Source: Aneurinibacillus aneurinilyticus ATCC 12856 (GTDB lineage Bacteria; Bacillota; Bacilli; Aneurinibacillales; Aneurinibacillaceae). Taken from it: a stretch of 64,000 nt of DNA. The translations under genes were made by a program, and so were the position numbers. The stretch lies in the NCBI RefSeq assembly GCF_000466385.1, contig NZ_KE952723.1, positions 1-64,000 of the forward strand, written 5' to 3'. Shown one piece after another: positions 45,166 through 51,388 of this stretch (positions are counted from its first letter, which is position 1; each line of letters begins with the position of its first letter). The notes beneath the pieces are model-generated. The model had not been told where the DNA came from. It searched no databases and saw nothing but the letters and a program-made list of their open reading frames with translations.

Positions 45166-45298
45166 TTGTCTGTAATATTCTTTATCCTTTATTTATATAG
45201 TAGAAAGGAGGATGATGAAGCGAATTTCACAATTTATTTTTAAGTAGAGTATGGTAAAATACAGAAGGATAGCGGCAGTTGAAGGGGGAAGCAGTCTG

Positions 45299-46099
45299 GT
45301 GGATGATAGAAGCTGGGAAGAATTCCTGATCCCTTATGAACAAGCGGTCGAGGAATTGAAGGTGAAATTTAGGGGTATTCGTAAAGAATTAAAAAAGAGA
45401 AATGAATATTCGCCCATTGAATTCGTGACAGGTCGCATCAAAAAGATTTCAAGCATCTTGGAAAAGGCGAACAAATTAGGCATTCCGTTGGACCGGCTTG
45501 AGGAAGTCGAAGATATTACGGGTATTCGGATTATGTGCCAGTTCGTCCAGGATATCGACCGAGTAGCGGAATTGGTCCGCCAGCGTAGCGGTAAAGATAT
45601 GACCCTCGTCTACGAGAAAGACTACATAAAAAACGAAAAACCGAGCGGCTACCGCAGCCATCACATTATCATTAAATATCCTGTGCATACTGCGCAGGGA
45701 GAAAAAGAAATACTGGCCGAAATCCAAATACGAACGCTAGCAATGAATTTCTGGGCGACCATCGAGCATTCCTTGAATTATAAGTATGAAGGCAATATTC
45801 CCGAAGATATAAGAGAACGTTTGCGTACGACGGCCGAAGCTGCGTATTTGCTGGATACAGAAATGTCGGAAATTCGTGACGAAATCCGTGATGCCCAACA
45901 AATGTTCGAATATAAGTCGAATATTGTTTCGCGGATTTTGCAAGGGATTCAGAATCTATATCAGCGCGGCTTTGTCGTAGAAGCAACAGAGTTCCAAAAT
46001 GAATTTCGTCAGATGCGGGCGCGTGGCGACGTAAGCGAGCTCCGTCAGCTCTCGCGTACGATCCGGGCAAAGATTCAGGAGGTTAGGACACGCGAGTAG
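45299..46099 (+). CDS. sasB: Small alarmone synthetase (RelQ/SasB, YjbM-like)
   Basis: Cytosolic synthetase that makes (p)ppGpp from GTP or GDP and ATP. The RelA/SpoT synthetase domain is clear: DITGIRIMCQFVQDI near residue 72, GYRSHHIIIKYP near 118 and EIQIRTLAMNFWATIEHSLNYKY near 140. There is no hydrolase domain. GTG 45299 gives MDDRSWEEFLIPYEQAVEELKV, which lines up with the B. subtilis YjbM start; an earlier ATG at 45251 is unlikely. The 266-residue product has about 50 extra C-terminal residues with a basic, coiled-coil-like pattern. Confidence 0.9.
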   Translation: MDDRSWEEFLIPYEQAVEELKVKFRGIRKELKKRNEYSPIEFVTGRIKKISSILEKANKLGIPLDRLEEVEDITGIRIMCQFVQDIDRVAELVRQRSGKDMTLVYEKDYIKNEKPSGYRSHHIIIKYPVHTAQGEKEILAEIQIRTLAMNFWATIEHSLNYKYEGNIPEDIRERLRTTAEAAYLLDTEMSEIRDEIRDAQQMFEYKSNIVSRILQGIQNLYQRGFVVEATEFQNEFRQMRARGDVSELRQLSRTIRAKIQEVRTRE

Positions 46100-46565: not shown

Positions 46566-47162
46566 ATGCGCGTTGAACGTCTAAATCAGGATAAAATAAG
46601 GATTTTCTTAACTTTCGATGACCTGATTGAACGGGGAATTGAAAAGGATGATATGTGGCGCGATATACCAAAAGTGCATGAACTTTTCAATGACATGATG
46701 GATCAGGCTCAAGACGAAGTGGGTTTTACAGTGAACGGACCCGTAGCCGTCGAAGTTTTCTCCCTGCCGGCTCAAGGCATGGTTGTAATCGTAACACGGG
46801 GTAAGACCGAAGCGCATGATGACGCTGAGGATCTGGACTACGATGACATATATGAAATGCAGGTTACACTAGAGGAGAGCGATGATGTGGTTTATGTGTT
46901 CTACGATTTTGAACACTTAATCGAACTAGCCCATCGAATCAATGCTAAGGTAATCGACGGGGGAAGCGCATATGCTTATAATGGGCGTTATTACCTCGTA
47001 TTTGAAGAAGTCGATTTAGCGAAAGATGAGTATGACGACTTTATAGCAGTATTGTCTGAATACGGTGAAGCTTCCACACTGACTAAGCATGTTCTGCAAG
47101 AGTATGGTAAAGTCGTTGTGGATAGTGATGCGGTAAAGGTTCTTTGCCGTTATTTCGACTAA
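46566..47162 (+). CDS. mecA: Adaptor protein MecA
   Basis: Adaptor that delivers unfolded proteins and the competence regulator ComK to the ClpC-ClpP protease. The N-terminal domain begins MRVERLNQDKIRIFLTFDDL and the C-terminal ClpC-binding domain lies at about residues 105-198; they are joined by an acidic linker. 198 residues. GGAGGGAGGGG precedes the start. A hairpin terminator follows. Confidence 0.93.
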   Translation: MRVERLNQDKIRIFLTFDDLIERGIEKDDMWRDIPKVHELFNDMMDQAQDEVGFTVNGPVAVEVFSLPAQGMVVIVTRGKTEAHDDAEDLDYDDIYEMQVTLEESDDVVYVFYDFEHLIELAHRINAKVIDGGSAYAYNGRYYLVFEEVDLAKDEYDDFIAVLSEYGEASTLTKHVLQEYGKVVVDSDAVKVLCRYFD

Positions 47163-47177
47163 CTCGCATAGTATGAA

Positions 47178-47205
47178 GCGTGTGGCATATTGCCATGCGC
47201 TTTTC
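47178..47205 (+). terminator. Terminator after mecA
   Basis: GCGTGTGGCA tatt GCCATGCGC with TTTTC downstream. Confidence 0.7.
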
Positions 47206-47317: not shown

Positions 47318-48844
47318 GTGGAACGATTGAAAAGCATAGAAGGAACGAACCTTGCACCAAGTCTGTCTAATGTGAATCTTGAAGAGCTTGTCAGCTATTA
47401 TGAAAAAAGCTTGTCACCTAATGCTATCTCATTTTTGAAGCGTAAAGGAATTGAACTGGAAACGGCGGAGAAATACCATATTGGCTTTGAGGGTCCCCAA
47501 ATCGGATTTAACGCCTCGCAGAGCAAACTGAGCGGCTATTTCATCAATCATCTTGTATTTCCGATTTATAACGAGGCGGGTCATGTAGTTGATTTATTGG
47601 GACAGCCGATTCAGGAGGTGAAGCCGCATAATAAAATGTTGCTTGGAAAAACGGATATTTTTTTCAATCAGGCTGTCATCGAAGAAGCTGATGAGGTGAT
47701 ATTGTGCCGTGATGTGTTTGATGTACTAACGCTTGAGCAGGCCGAAGTTGCTGCTATATGTGTGCCAGAGTACAATGTGTTTAAGGAAGCTCATGCCCAC
47801 CTTTTAAAAGGAAAACGAGTATTTATCTGTTATCCGAATGATGAATCAAGCCGACGTGAGAGCAAGCGAATTCAGGGCATGCTACAAGGTAAGGCGGAAG
47901 AAGTATATATTCCATATTTGCCGGAAGGTATTCGTAATATCAATATGTTTTTTAATGAAATCAAGGAACCGAAGCCAAAGTTCATGCGACTTTTAAGGCA
48001 GGCGGTAGAGGAGACGATTAAGGAACCCATCGCCTCTGATGCAAAAAATTTGGTTGTGTTTATGGAAGAATATTGTCAGCGCTATAAACATGAAGGGAAC
48101 GGAATAAAAACCGGTTTTTCGGAGCTTGACGATCTGCTGCTTGGAGGTATGCGTGGCGGATTGTATATGATTGAAGGGTACGTATCAAGCGGCAAGTCCA
48201 TGTTTATGCGCCAGATGGCAGATCAAATTGCGCAACATGAGGTTCCGGTTGTTTATGTGACATGGGATATGACAGCGTTTGAGCTGTGGGCCCGTTCGAT
48301 GGCTCGCTTCCTTGATGTATCTACGGAAGAAGTATTGACAGGACAAGTGGAAGCAGAGAAAGTTCAGCAGGCAAATCAAGAATACAAAAAGATTGCTAAC
48401 CATTTATTCACGATCGAAGGCAAATTTGATACGTCTCTGTATGATATTGAGGATTGTGTGGAACAAATAACGAAATCGCTTGGTACGGCCCCGGTAGTAT
48501 TTATTGATCATATTCAGCGTGTGCCGGTGCGTGACAAAGACGGACGCTTAATGCCAGGAGAAAATGAAGCATTAGTGGCATACATGCTTCATCAGTGGTC
48601 GCGAAAATGGGATATTCCCATTGTGGTTTCCTCGTTAAAAAGCAACGGTGAGGGAGACAGAATGCCGGGGACGGTGGAAGCTTCGGTTGATGTTCTGCTC
48701 GTATTTGAGCGAAGTAAAGGCGAACGGGAGCATAAGCAGGAGGAGATTGTTATTCGTATGAATAAAAACCGCAATGGCTCGCTGGGCAAGCTTCCATTTT
48801 TATTTAATAAAGAAAAAGCCAGCTTTACGCCTTCCAAAACGTAG
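47318..48844 (+). CDS. DnaB-type helicase with degenerate Toprim primase domain (Twinkle/gp4-like)
   Basis: 508-residue protein. The N-terminal 190 residues resemble the core of DnaG-type primases (SPNAISFLKRKGIELETAEKYHIGF, then a Toprim-like block), but the acidic Toprim residues are lost: the usual EGxxD reads CRDVFD at 130-135 and the usual DxDxxG reads YPNDESS at 172-178. Residues 250-505 form a RecA/DnaB helicase core with Walker A GYVSSGKS (287-294) and Walker B VVFIDH (Asp397). There is no zinc-binding domain. GTG start after GGGGGGAGGG. Likely a non-priming helicase; the role is unknown. Confidence 0.85.
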   Translation: MERLKSIEGTNLAPSLSNVNLEELVSYYEKSLSPNAISFLKRKGIELETAEKYHIGFEGPQIGFNASQSKLSGYFINHLVFPIYNEAGHVVDLLGQPIQEVKPHNKMLLGKTDIFFNQAVIEEADEVILCRDVFDVLTLEQAEVAAICVPEYNVFKEAHAHLLKGKRVFICYPNDESSRRESKRIQGMLQGKAEEVYIPYLPEGIRNINMFFNEIKEPKPKFMRLLRQAVEETIKEPIASDAKNLVVFMEEYCQRYKHEGNGIKTGFSELDDLLLGGMRGGLYMIEGYVSSGKSMFMRQMADQIAQHEVPVVYVTWDMTAFELWARSMARFLDVSTEEVLTGQVEAEKVQQANQEYKKIANHLFTIEGKFDTSLYDIEDCVEQITKSLGTAPVVFIDHIQRVPVRDKDGRLMPGENEALVAYMLHQWSRKWDIPIVVSSLKSNGEGDRMPGTVEASVDVLLVFERSKGEREHKQEEIVIRMNKNRNGSLGKLPFLFNKEKASFTPSKT

Positions 48845-48904
48845 AGGAAAGAGTTATACTTGCTATGTCTTGACAGACTTATGAATTTTTCGAGGTGGTA
48901 AAAA

Positions 48905-50209
48905 ATGGGAGAAAAAGACGTGGTAACCGAATCAACTGCTTCTGCGAATGGGAGCGCAGAGCAGCAGCAAGAGAACCTGGATGTGCTGAAGTCAACACAG
49001 ACGGTGATTGCTGAAGCCCTTGACAAAATGGGATATCCGAAAGAGATGTATGAGCTCTTGAAGGAACCGATGCGCATGTTCACTGTACGTATCCCGGTGC
49101 GGATGGACAATGGCGAGACGAGGGTGTTTACTGGTTACCGGGCTCAGCATAATGATGCGGTTGGGCCAACAAAGGGTGGTGTTCGTTTCCATCCAGAAGT
49201 ATCAGAAGGCGAAGTAAAAGCGCTTTCGATTTGGATGAGTTTAAAGTGCGGTATCGTTGATTTGCCGTATGGTGGCGGTAAAGGTGGCATCATCTGCGAT
49301 CCGCGTGAGATGTCGTTCCGTGAATTGGAGCGTTTAAGCCGTGGATACGTACGCGCTATCAGCCAAATTGTAGGACCAACAAAAGACATCCCTGCTCCGG
49401 ACGTATTCACTAACTCGCAAATTATGGCATGGATGATGGATGAATACAGCAGCATCCGTGAGTTTGATTCTCCAGGCTTCATCACAGGTAAACCGATTGT
49501 GCTCGGCGGATCGCAAGGTCGTGAAACGGCAACCGCTAAAGGCGTAACGATTTGTATTGCAGAGGCAGCTAAGAAAAAAGGCATTGATTTGAAAGGTGCG
49601 CGTGTTGTCGTACAAGGTTTCGGTAATGCGGGTAGTTTCCTTGCGAAATTCATGCATGATGCCGGAGCAAAAGTTATTGCTATCTCTGATGCATATGGTG
49701 CATTGCACGACGAAAATGGACTGGATATCGAATACCTGCTGGATCGTCGCGATTCGTTCGGTACGGTAACAAAACTGTTCAGCAACACAATCTCCAACAA
49801 AGAATTACTTGAGCTGGACTGCGATATTCTGGTACCAGCCGCAATCGAGAATCAGATTACGGCATCCAATGCACATAACATTAAAGCGAGCATCGTAGTT
49901 GAAGCGGCAAATGGACCGACAACGCTGGAGGCGACACGCATCTTGACTGAGCGGGGCATTCTGCTTGTTCCAGACGTGCTGGCAAGCTCAGGTGGAGTAA
50001 CCGTATCGTATTTTGAATGGGTGCAGAATAACCAGGGCTATTACTGGACGGAAGAAGAAGTGGAAAGCCGTCTGCGCGAAGTGCTTGTACGTGCGTTTGA
50101 AAATGTATATAATACGCACGTGTCCCGCGATGTAAACATGCGTCTAGCCGCTTATATGGTGGGCGTACGCAAGATGGCGGAAGCAAGCCAGTTCCGCGGC
50201 TGGGTATAA
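48905..50209 (+). CDS. gudB: NAD-specific glutamate dehydrogenase
   Basis: 434-residue hexameric enzyme that interconverts glutamate and 2-oxoglutarate plus ammonia; in Bacillus it acts mainly catabolically. Substrate domain with GPTKGGVRFHPEV near residue 85 and the catalytic Lys in PYGGGKGGI near 122; NAD domain with GFGNAGSF near 238. The acidic N-terminal 35 residues are an extension. The name gudB rests on its place in synteny; rocG would look the same. Strong terminator follows. Confidence 0.92.
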   Translation: MGEKDVVTESTASANGSAEQQQENLDVLKSTQTVIAEALDKMGYPKEMYELLKEPMRMFTVRIPVRMDNGETRVFTGYRAQHNDAVGPTKGGVRFHPEVSEGEVKALSIWMSLKCGIVDLPYGGGKGGIICDPREMSFRELERLSRGYVRAISQIVGPTKDIPAPDVFTNSQIMAWMMDEYSSIREFDSPGFITGKPIVLGGSQGRETATAKGVTICIAEAAKKKGIDLKGARVVVQGFGNAGSFLAKFMHDAGAKVIAISDAYGALHDENGLDIEYLLDRRDSFGTVTKLFSNTISNKELLELDCDILVPAAIENQITASNAHNIKASIVVEAANGPTTLEATRILTERGILLVPDVLASSGGVTVSYFEWVQNNQGYYWTEEEVESRLREVLVRAFENVYNTHVSRDVNMRLAAYMVGVRKMAEASQFRGWV

Positions 50210-50428: not shown

Positions 50429-51388
50429 ATGCGTAAAGTAGTTTTGTTAACCACAGGTGGAACAATTGCAAGTAAGGCAAATGAAAAAGGAATGTTATCT
50501 TCTGGAGAATTATCTGGTCAAGAATTAGCTGATATGTGCAATTTGCCCAAAAATATAGAAGTTGTCGTTGATTCGGCCTTTCAATTACCTTCTATGCACA
50601 TAGGGTTTAATGAACTGTTGGAATTAAAAAGTCATATTGAAAAAATCTTTAAGGATGAATCAGTTGATGGCATTGTTGTCACTCATGGTACGGATACTAT
50701 GGAGGAAACGGCATATTTTTTGGACTTAGTTATTAGCGACGAAAGAACCGTTGTTTTAACTGGCTCACAACGATCACTAGAGGATTTAAGTAATGATGTG
50801 TATATAAATATCAGGCACGCTATTTACACTGCCTGTGATGAAACATTAAGAGGTTCAGGAGTGGTTGTTGTATTTAATGAGCGTATATTCTCCGCTAAAT
50901 ATGTAAAGAAAGTTCATGCATCCAATATTCAGGGATTTGATGTGTTTGGCTTTGGATATTTTGGCATTATTGATAATGATGTAGTAAAAATTTATCAAAA
51001 ACCTGTATGCAATGAAAGTTTTAACATTGTTAAAGAAATCCCTCCAGTTGATATCATAAAGTGCTACATTGAAGCGGATAGTAAATTTATTGATGCAGCA
51101 ATTCAAAGTGGTGCAAAAGGAATTGTTCTTGAAGGCGTAGGCAGGGGACAGGTTGCTCCTAAAATGATGGACGGTATTGAGCGGGCTATAAAGAATGGTG
51201 TGCAAGTGGTTATTACTACAAGCGCAGAAGAGGGCCATGTTTACACGACTTATGATTATCCGGGAAGCGCATATGACCTGTATACAAAAGGGGTAATGTT
51301 AGGAAAGGATTATGATAGCAAAAAAGCAAGAATGAGGCTTGCTGTGCTTCTGGCGAGTGATATAGATGATATTAAAGAAGTGTTCTAA
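50429..51388 (+). CDS. ansA: L-asparaginase
   Basis: 319-residue amidohydrolase that releases ammonia and aspartate from asparagine. Threonine sites are in TTGGTIAS near residue 8 and the second motif HGTDTMEETAYFLDL near 92, both diagnostic of the type I/II asparaginase family; no signal peptide, so cytoplasmic. The gene is AT-rich compared with its neighbours (many A/T third positions), and no other asparagine gene is near. GGAGG precedes the ATG. Confidence 0.93.
   Translation: MRKVVLLTTGGTIASKANEKGMLSSGELSGQELADMCNLPKNIEVVVDSAFQLPSMHIGFNELLELKSHIEKIFKDESVDGIVVTHGTDTMEETAYFLDLVISDERTVVLTGSQRSLEDLSNDVYINIRHAIYTACDETLRGSGVVVVFNERIFSAKYVKKVHASNIQGFDVFGFGYFGIIDNDVVKIYQKPVCNESFNIVKEIPPVDIIKCYIEADSKFIDAAIQSGAKGIVLEGVGRGQVAPKMMDGIERAIKNGVQVVITTSAEEGHVYTTYDYPGSAYDLYTKGVMLGKDYDSKKARMRLAVLLASDIDDIKEVF

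Follow-up and report, generated by a model that had tools for sequence, protein, structure and literature searches.

A predicted primase-dead primase-helicase-like protein at a conserved chromosomal locus in Bacilli

The stretch of DNA analyzed here (the window; 64,000 nucleotides of Aneurinibacillus aneurinilyticus ATCC 12856, positions 1 to 64,000 of contig NZ_KE952723.1) contains the gene order mecA–HEL–gdh, in which HEL denotes a primase-helicase-like protein (Table 1). The GTG start of HEL is preceded by the RBS-like GGGGGGAGGGAGAG, and its position is identical in the nearest orthologs; a gap of 155 bp separates the gene from mecA. No phage or mobile-element genes were found among the locus neighbors in the window, and the setting given in the original prediction, between mecA and glutamate dehydrogenase with no phage genes near, is thus the correct one. 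A RelA/SpoT-domain gene (45251–46099), whose product is a probable small alarmone synthetase, lies directly upstream of mecA and stays with it across the window's family. The gene after gdh encodes an asparaginase (50429–51388) and lies on the + strand in the window; in most other relatives, the asparaginase position is held by a distant paralog (about 32% identical) on the opposite strand. The genome to which the window belongs has homologs of DnaB, DnaG, and the DnaD/DnaB-loader at other loci, which makes a replicative-helicase role for HEL very unlikely.

Table 1. Features at the HEL locus, in window coordinates; residue numbers refer to the HEL protein.
Feature	Position	Strand	Description
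mecA	46566–47162	+	Neighbor upstream of HEL
Terminator-like hairpin	47175–47203		3' of mecA, between mecA and HEL
HEL, predicted primase-dead primase-helicase-like protein	47318–48844	+	508 aa; uninterrupted ORF, GTG start, RBS-like sequence upstream
DnaG RNA-polymerase domain, N-terminal subdomain, shortened	47366–47650	+	Residues about 17–111; DNAG_N in 11/11, 2au3 profile, gap relative to DnaG
Degenerate Toprim domain	47690–47962	+	Residues 125–215; R131 at catalytic Glu, P173-N174-D175 at DxD
Conserved linker	48050–48088	+	Residues 245–257; E250/E251/R255 invariant
Walker A	48176–48199	+	Residues 287–294, G-Y-V-S-S-G-K-S; GKS 292–294
H1a motif W316-D317-M318-T319	48263–48274	+	Asp317 at SF4 hydrolytic Glu; aligned with SLEMS of Bst DnaB
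Walker B	48494–48511	+	Residues 393–398, V-V-F-I-D397-H
Region after sensor strand	48623–48694	+	Residues 436–459; SF4 DNA-binding loop (SDIRESGSIEQDAD in DnaB) missing
Arginine-finger motif K483-N-R485-N-G	48764–48778	+	From alignment
HEL 3' end and spacer	48815–48880	+	TATACT at 48855–48860; kept in relatives that lost HEL
gdh, glutamate dehydrogenase	48905–50209	+	Neighbor downstream of HEL

HEL joins a DnaG-type RNA-polymerase/Toprim N-terminal half to a DnaB-type RecA C-terminal half, and profile searches of both halves bear out the fusion of a primase-type N-terminus with a DnaB-type helicase that had been predicted. The C-terminal half matches DnaB_C (PF03796; E 2e-28) over residues 262–504. 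For the N-terminal half, a profile of 11 orthologs matches Aquifex DnaG (2au3) at profile positions 15–203 (E 2e-16); within this set, DNAG_N was found in every member and Toprim_2 in seven. Pfam Toprim_2 scores above its cut-off in the orthologs at L067, L070, L074, and L075, and below it in the window's HEL itself. As predicted, the ORF lacks a CHC2 zinc domain, and there is no separate zinc-domain gene of the kind seen on an L. fermentum plasmid, for which the gap between mecA and HEL is too small. The linker between the two halves is presumed to pack subunits, by analogy with T7 gp4. The order of RNA-polymerase/Toprim domain, linker, and RecA ring is itself shared with T7 gp4, the short form of which has no zinc domain; a CHC2-type zinc-binding domain is required for priming. 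HEL nonetheless differs from T7 gp4 in that the Toprim acids and the Glu of motif H1a are not conserved, the two proteins are about 15% identical, and HEL is not a phage protein.

Other assignments of the ORF were rejected. Full-length RadA, as modeled, comprises a zinc domain, the KNRFG motif, and a Lon-like domain; HEL reaches only 32.6 bits against TIGR00416 (cut-off 403), through the RecA core alone, and has KNRNG instead of KNRFG, so that it is not RadA/Sms. It is likewise not a DnaG primase, being without the zinc domain and the catalytic Toprim acids in a genome that has its real dnaG elsewhere. As a DnaB replicative helicase, HEL falls far short as well, scoring 77 against TIGR00665 (cut-off 385). 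The candidates at L047–L051 proved to be plain DnaG and were dropped as relatives, and no papers on the HEL family were found in the open-licence literature. An AlphaFold model of HEL, built on four sequences, has a mean pLDDT of 69, with the RecA and Toprim parts mostly at 70–90 and a poor N-terminal region. Its best PDB matches are T7 gp4 (5ikn, the best of all), Bst DnaB (4esv), and Twinkle (7t8c, 8e2l), with TM-scores of only about 0.4–0.5; the domain arrangement in the model is therefore uncertain, and the domain folds alone were taken from it.

In a sample of 399 Bacilli genomes, 19 (counting that of the window) have a HEL ortholog, and these fall into seven family groups; a twentieth Bacilli match, in genome G377, is a plasmid-type primase-helicase and was left out. 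Two further members lie outside Bacilli (G417 and G421), for a total of 21; a class-wide search around these two gave no additional Toprim-intact relatives, each being the sole sampled genome of its own class or order. Conservation at the locus, which the original prediction had proposed to check by phylogeny, is borne out among the Bacilli orthologs: gdh adjoins HEL in 15 of the 19, in six family groups, and mecA lies upstream in 14. The other neighbors are ordinary chromosomal genes (ddl, bshB-like, prsW, ypeB, cmk), and the orthologs have housekeeping neighbors in families f1, f2, f9, f23, and f24. Prophage flanks were not found around the orthologs; a site-specific-recombinase-like ORF lies beside that of G351 only. 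In the gene tree, the Bacilli members form a single clade (100/100), and every sampled family represented by two or more members is monophyletic. A tree of neighboring genes recovers the same families, with different deep forks. Horizontal spread was rejected, because both trees hold the sampled families together, and HEL is vertically inherited. Between the window and G005, the nearest ortholog, dN/dS is 0.053 for HEL and 0.02 for mecA and gdh; HEL is clearly under purifying selection.

Within the window's order, HEL is present in nine of 15 genomes; the remaining six have no intact copy, one of them retaining a pseudogene, and four genomes of the window's genus are without the gene. Losses of this kind have left traces. 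In G003, the last 13 codons of HEL remain directly upstream of gdh (13/13 identical), 11 of the last 15 remain in G001, and G006 shows a weak 7/11 match; A. terranovensis carries a HEL pseudogene. These deletion scars and the pseudogene speak for loss instead of a recent gain in Aneurinibacillus, and they show HEL to be both old and dispensable.

The primase site has been altered by replacement. In HEL, R131 stands in place of the catalytic Toprim Glu and P173 in place of the first Asp of DxD, while the second Asp, D175, is kept and is invariant in the family, as is D135 of the E-x-x-x-D motif. On either side, the motifs line up with DnaG and with the Toprim-intact relatives in a gap-free alignment, and the acids are thus not present at displaced positions. 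Across the 19 Bacilli members, R, K, N, G, or S takes the place of the Glu, and P, S, or G that of the first Asp; the second Asp of DxD and the Asp of FD(V/A) are retained. The predicted loss of the catalytic acids accordingly applies to the Glu and the first Asp and does not extend to D175. G417 and G421 have intact Toprim motifs (CEGIIDA, with FDND or FDSD) and all three acids, and they lack the zinc domain nonetheless. HEL is thus predicted from its residues to be primase-dead, and since the site is intact in these two genomes and altered in every Bacilli member, its loss would map most simply to one branch.

As for the RecA half, all 21 members retain Walker A and the Asp of Walker B, and most of them the KxR arginine finger (the f36 group has QNRNG or QNKNG, and G351 has KNLFG). 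The H1a Glu is present in G417, G421, G075, G096, and G107; it is replaced by Asp in the window's HEL and most others, by Gln in f36, and by Gly in G351. The SF4 ssDNA-contact loop (RESG) is found in none of the 21 members, the Toprim-intact ones included. The same motif is kept in 17 of 17 extractable DnaB homologs and in each of the six plasmid-type primase-helicases compared, once as KESGDI. In the Geobacillus DnaB, the loop residues R381, E382, and G384, which lie in SDIRESGSIEQDAD, touch ssDNA phosphates (PMC6391071, PMC8421360). HEL shares with DnaB the C-terminal RecA fold, the Walker motifs, and the KxRNG arginine finger, but it has lost the DNA loop and the catalytic Glu, and its DnaG-like N-terminal half gives no match to the DnaB N-terminal domain. 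The ATPase had been described as intact; this holds for Walker A, the Walker B Asp, and the arginine finger, and not for the hydrolytic Glu, which is Asp317, or for the missing loop. Since the deeper relatives have the acids but not the zinc domain, the sequence of losses may have begun with the zinc domain and the DNA loop and gone on to the Toprim acids, with the hydrolytic Glu lost repeatedly.

We tentatively interpret HEL as a domesticated, primase-dead SF4 ring ATPase whose part in chromosome maintenance is that of a slow, ATP-gated scaffold and not of a canonical helicase, a reading drawn from sequence and analogy to which we would give only a little less than an even chance. HEL would descend from a zinc-less primase-helicase of T7 gp4/Twinkle architecture; with Walker A, the Walker B Asp, the arginine finger, and the linker kept, it would still form a ring via its RecA-fold domain, and it would be expected to bind ATP. 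Because the H1a Glu is Asp, ATP hydrolysis may be slow or absent, by analogy with RecA E96D, which is hydrolysis-deficient but keeps ATP binding (PMC5240526), and with T7 gp4 E343Q, which shows no hydrolysis and tight DNA binding (PMC8835902). Because the ssDNA-contact loop is gone, HEL would probably not track along ssDNA in the manner of DnaB. The degenerate primase half could form a collar that binds ssDNA or a partner, by analogy with the dead primase domain of metazoan Twinkle (PMC7231222) and with T7, in which residues of the primase domain are required for loading on ssDNA (PMC9198812). Such a protein would work in the maintenance of replication or repair as a clamp or scaffold gated by ATP, and not as a processive helicase. 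In G417, the deep relative follows DnaD/DnaB-loader-like (DnaB_2-domain), DnaI/DnaC-like, and O6-methylguanine-methyltransferase (MGMT)-like genes on one strand (L075:7845-12186), a possible primosome operon, and this neighborhood suggests, only indirectly, a role for HEL in replication, repair, or DNA maintenance.

Several points count against a scaffold. Asp317 may hydrolyze ATP well enough in the fold of HEL; the family may bind DNA differently, as the three Bacilli members that have the Glu (G075, G096, and G107) and the two Toprim-intact relatives are also without the loop; and the neighbors mecA and gdh are uninformative about DNA. A further reading, with a likelihood distinctly below even, is that HEL is a conserved bacterial pseudo-primase-helicase: a gp4/Twinkle-type ring on the chromosome that has kept nucleotide binding and subunit contacts through the decay of its primase site, its hydrolytic Glu, and its DNA-gripping loop, and that would serve as an ATP-switched scaffold or regulator instead of a motor. 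If true, HEL would be a bacterial counterpart of the loss of priming in Twinkle, one in which the motor has decayed as well and which selection has maintained at a single chromosomal locus in several families of Bacilli. Such a family would then offer a way to test the abilities of a replicative ring protein that is neither a primase nor a canonical helicase.

It is less probable, and on balance unlikely, that HEL is an active accessory DNA helicase or ssDNA translocase in replication restart or repair, primase-dead and yet unwinding. The precedent is Twinkle, which combines a dead primase domain with an active helicase (PMC7231222, PMC3610141); the metazoan protein resembles HEL in its inactive primase half, its lost zinc domain, and its fusion to an SF4 RecA ring, and it is among the best structural matches of the HEL model. 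The retained Walker motifs and arginine finger would suit such an activity, as would the loader-like genes beside the deep relative in G417. Twinkle, however, is mitochondrial, whereas HEL is found on a bacterial chromosome alongside separate DnaB and DnaG, without the DnaB-type DNA-binding loop and the H1a Glu. Asp at H1a here and Gln or Gly elsewhere would hardly be expected in a family of active helicases, and the absence of the contact loop from the whole family points in the same direction. Loss of the loop alone would still be compatible with unwinding, to judge from GkDnaC (a DnaB), in which weaker DNA contact led to faster unwinding (PMC3236778). The restart or repair helicase originally proposed nevertheless goes beyond the evidence, given the altered Glu and the absent loop.

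HEL could also be a regulatory ATPase with no role on DNA, its RecA/KaiC-like ring and dead Toprim pocket sensing a nucleotide and regulating a partner, possibly in connection with GDH or MecA. The missing DNA loop and the frequent company of gdh and mecA would agree with this, but we consider it improbable, as a terminator-like hairpin separates mecA from HEL, and gdh seems to have a promoter of its own that overlaps the 3' end of HEL and is kept after HEL loss. The adjacency of HEL and gdh may therefore be plain synteny, and an operon with gdh as its cause is weakened by the promoter-like element that remains. HEL also persists without an adjacent gdh in G009, G010, and G011, and gdh persists in genomes without HEL. 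Conserved in the HEL 3' end and spacer is the series AAAGCCAGCTTTAC..CCTTCCAAAACGTA..TATACT; from its conservation, this region is probably a promoter or operator of gdh that lies within the coding end of HEL, and the HEL remnants probably survive by carrying it.

The domestication that had been predicted is well supported by the same locus in several families, by trees that keep families together, by purifying selection, by the lack of mobile neighbors in the window, and by the lack of a close phage or plasmid homolog. No relative turned up when viral contigs were scanned with the HEL protein or with the alignment, the related-locus search gave nothing viral, and GenBank phages match the RecA half alone, at about 25%; a recent phage origin was rejected on these grounds. 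That HEL is an anti-phage defense protein or a leftover replication protein of a mobile element is largely refuted and very improbable: phages and plasmids typically have this architecture, relatives and plasmids encode full primase-helicases that include a zinc domain, and the PADLOC RTasDnaG-like model matches residues 49–223, but this match is to the shared Toprim region only, no reverse transcriptase was recognized by eye among the neighbors, the housekeeping locus is fixed, the trees hold families together, and no phage or plasmid homolog aligns end to end at more than about 26% identity. The plasmid and phage primase-helicases (pSMQ-316, Sebaldella pSTERM02, L. fermentum pCYLB55-1; PHROG 239) have the same fusion as HEL and are similar to it end to end (24–26% identity over 78–90%). 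They form a clade separate from HEL (100/100) and retain both the Toprim acids and the (R/K)ESG loop; most also carry a zinc domain, or have CHC2 as a gene of its own.

Plasmid-type proteins of this kind were also met with in the genomes and plasmids compared. G036 encodes a second, full primase-helicase (CHC2 zinc domain, intact Toprim, DnaB_C; L042:5303-7291) related to plasmid proteins, and the match on the G377 contig (L071:8524-10602) is a near copy of the primase-helicase of S. thermophilus plasmid pSMQ-316. On the L. fermentum plasmid (L087:1003-3096), the CHC2 zinc domain is a separate small gene just before the primase-helicase.
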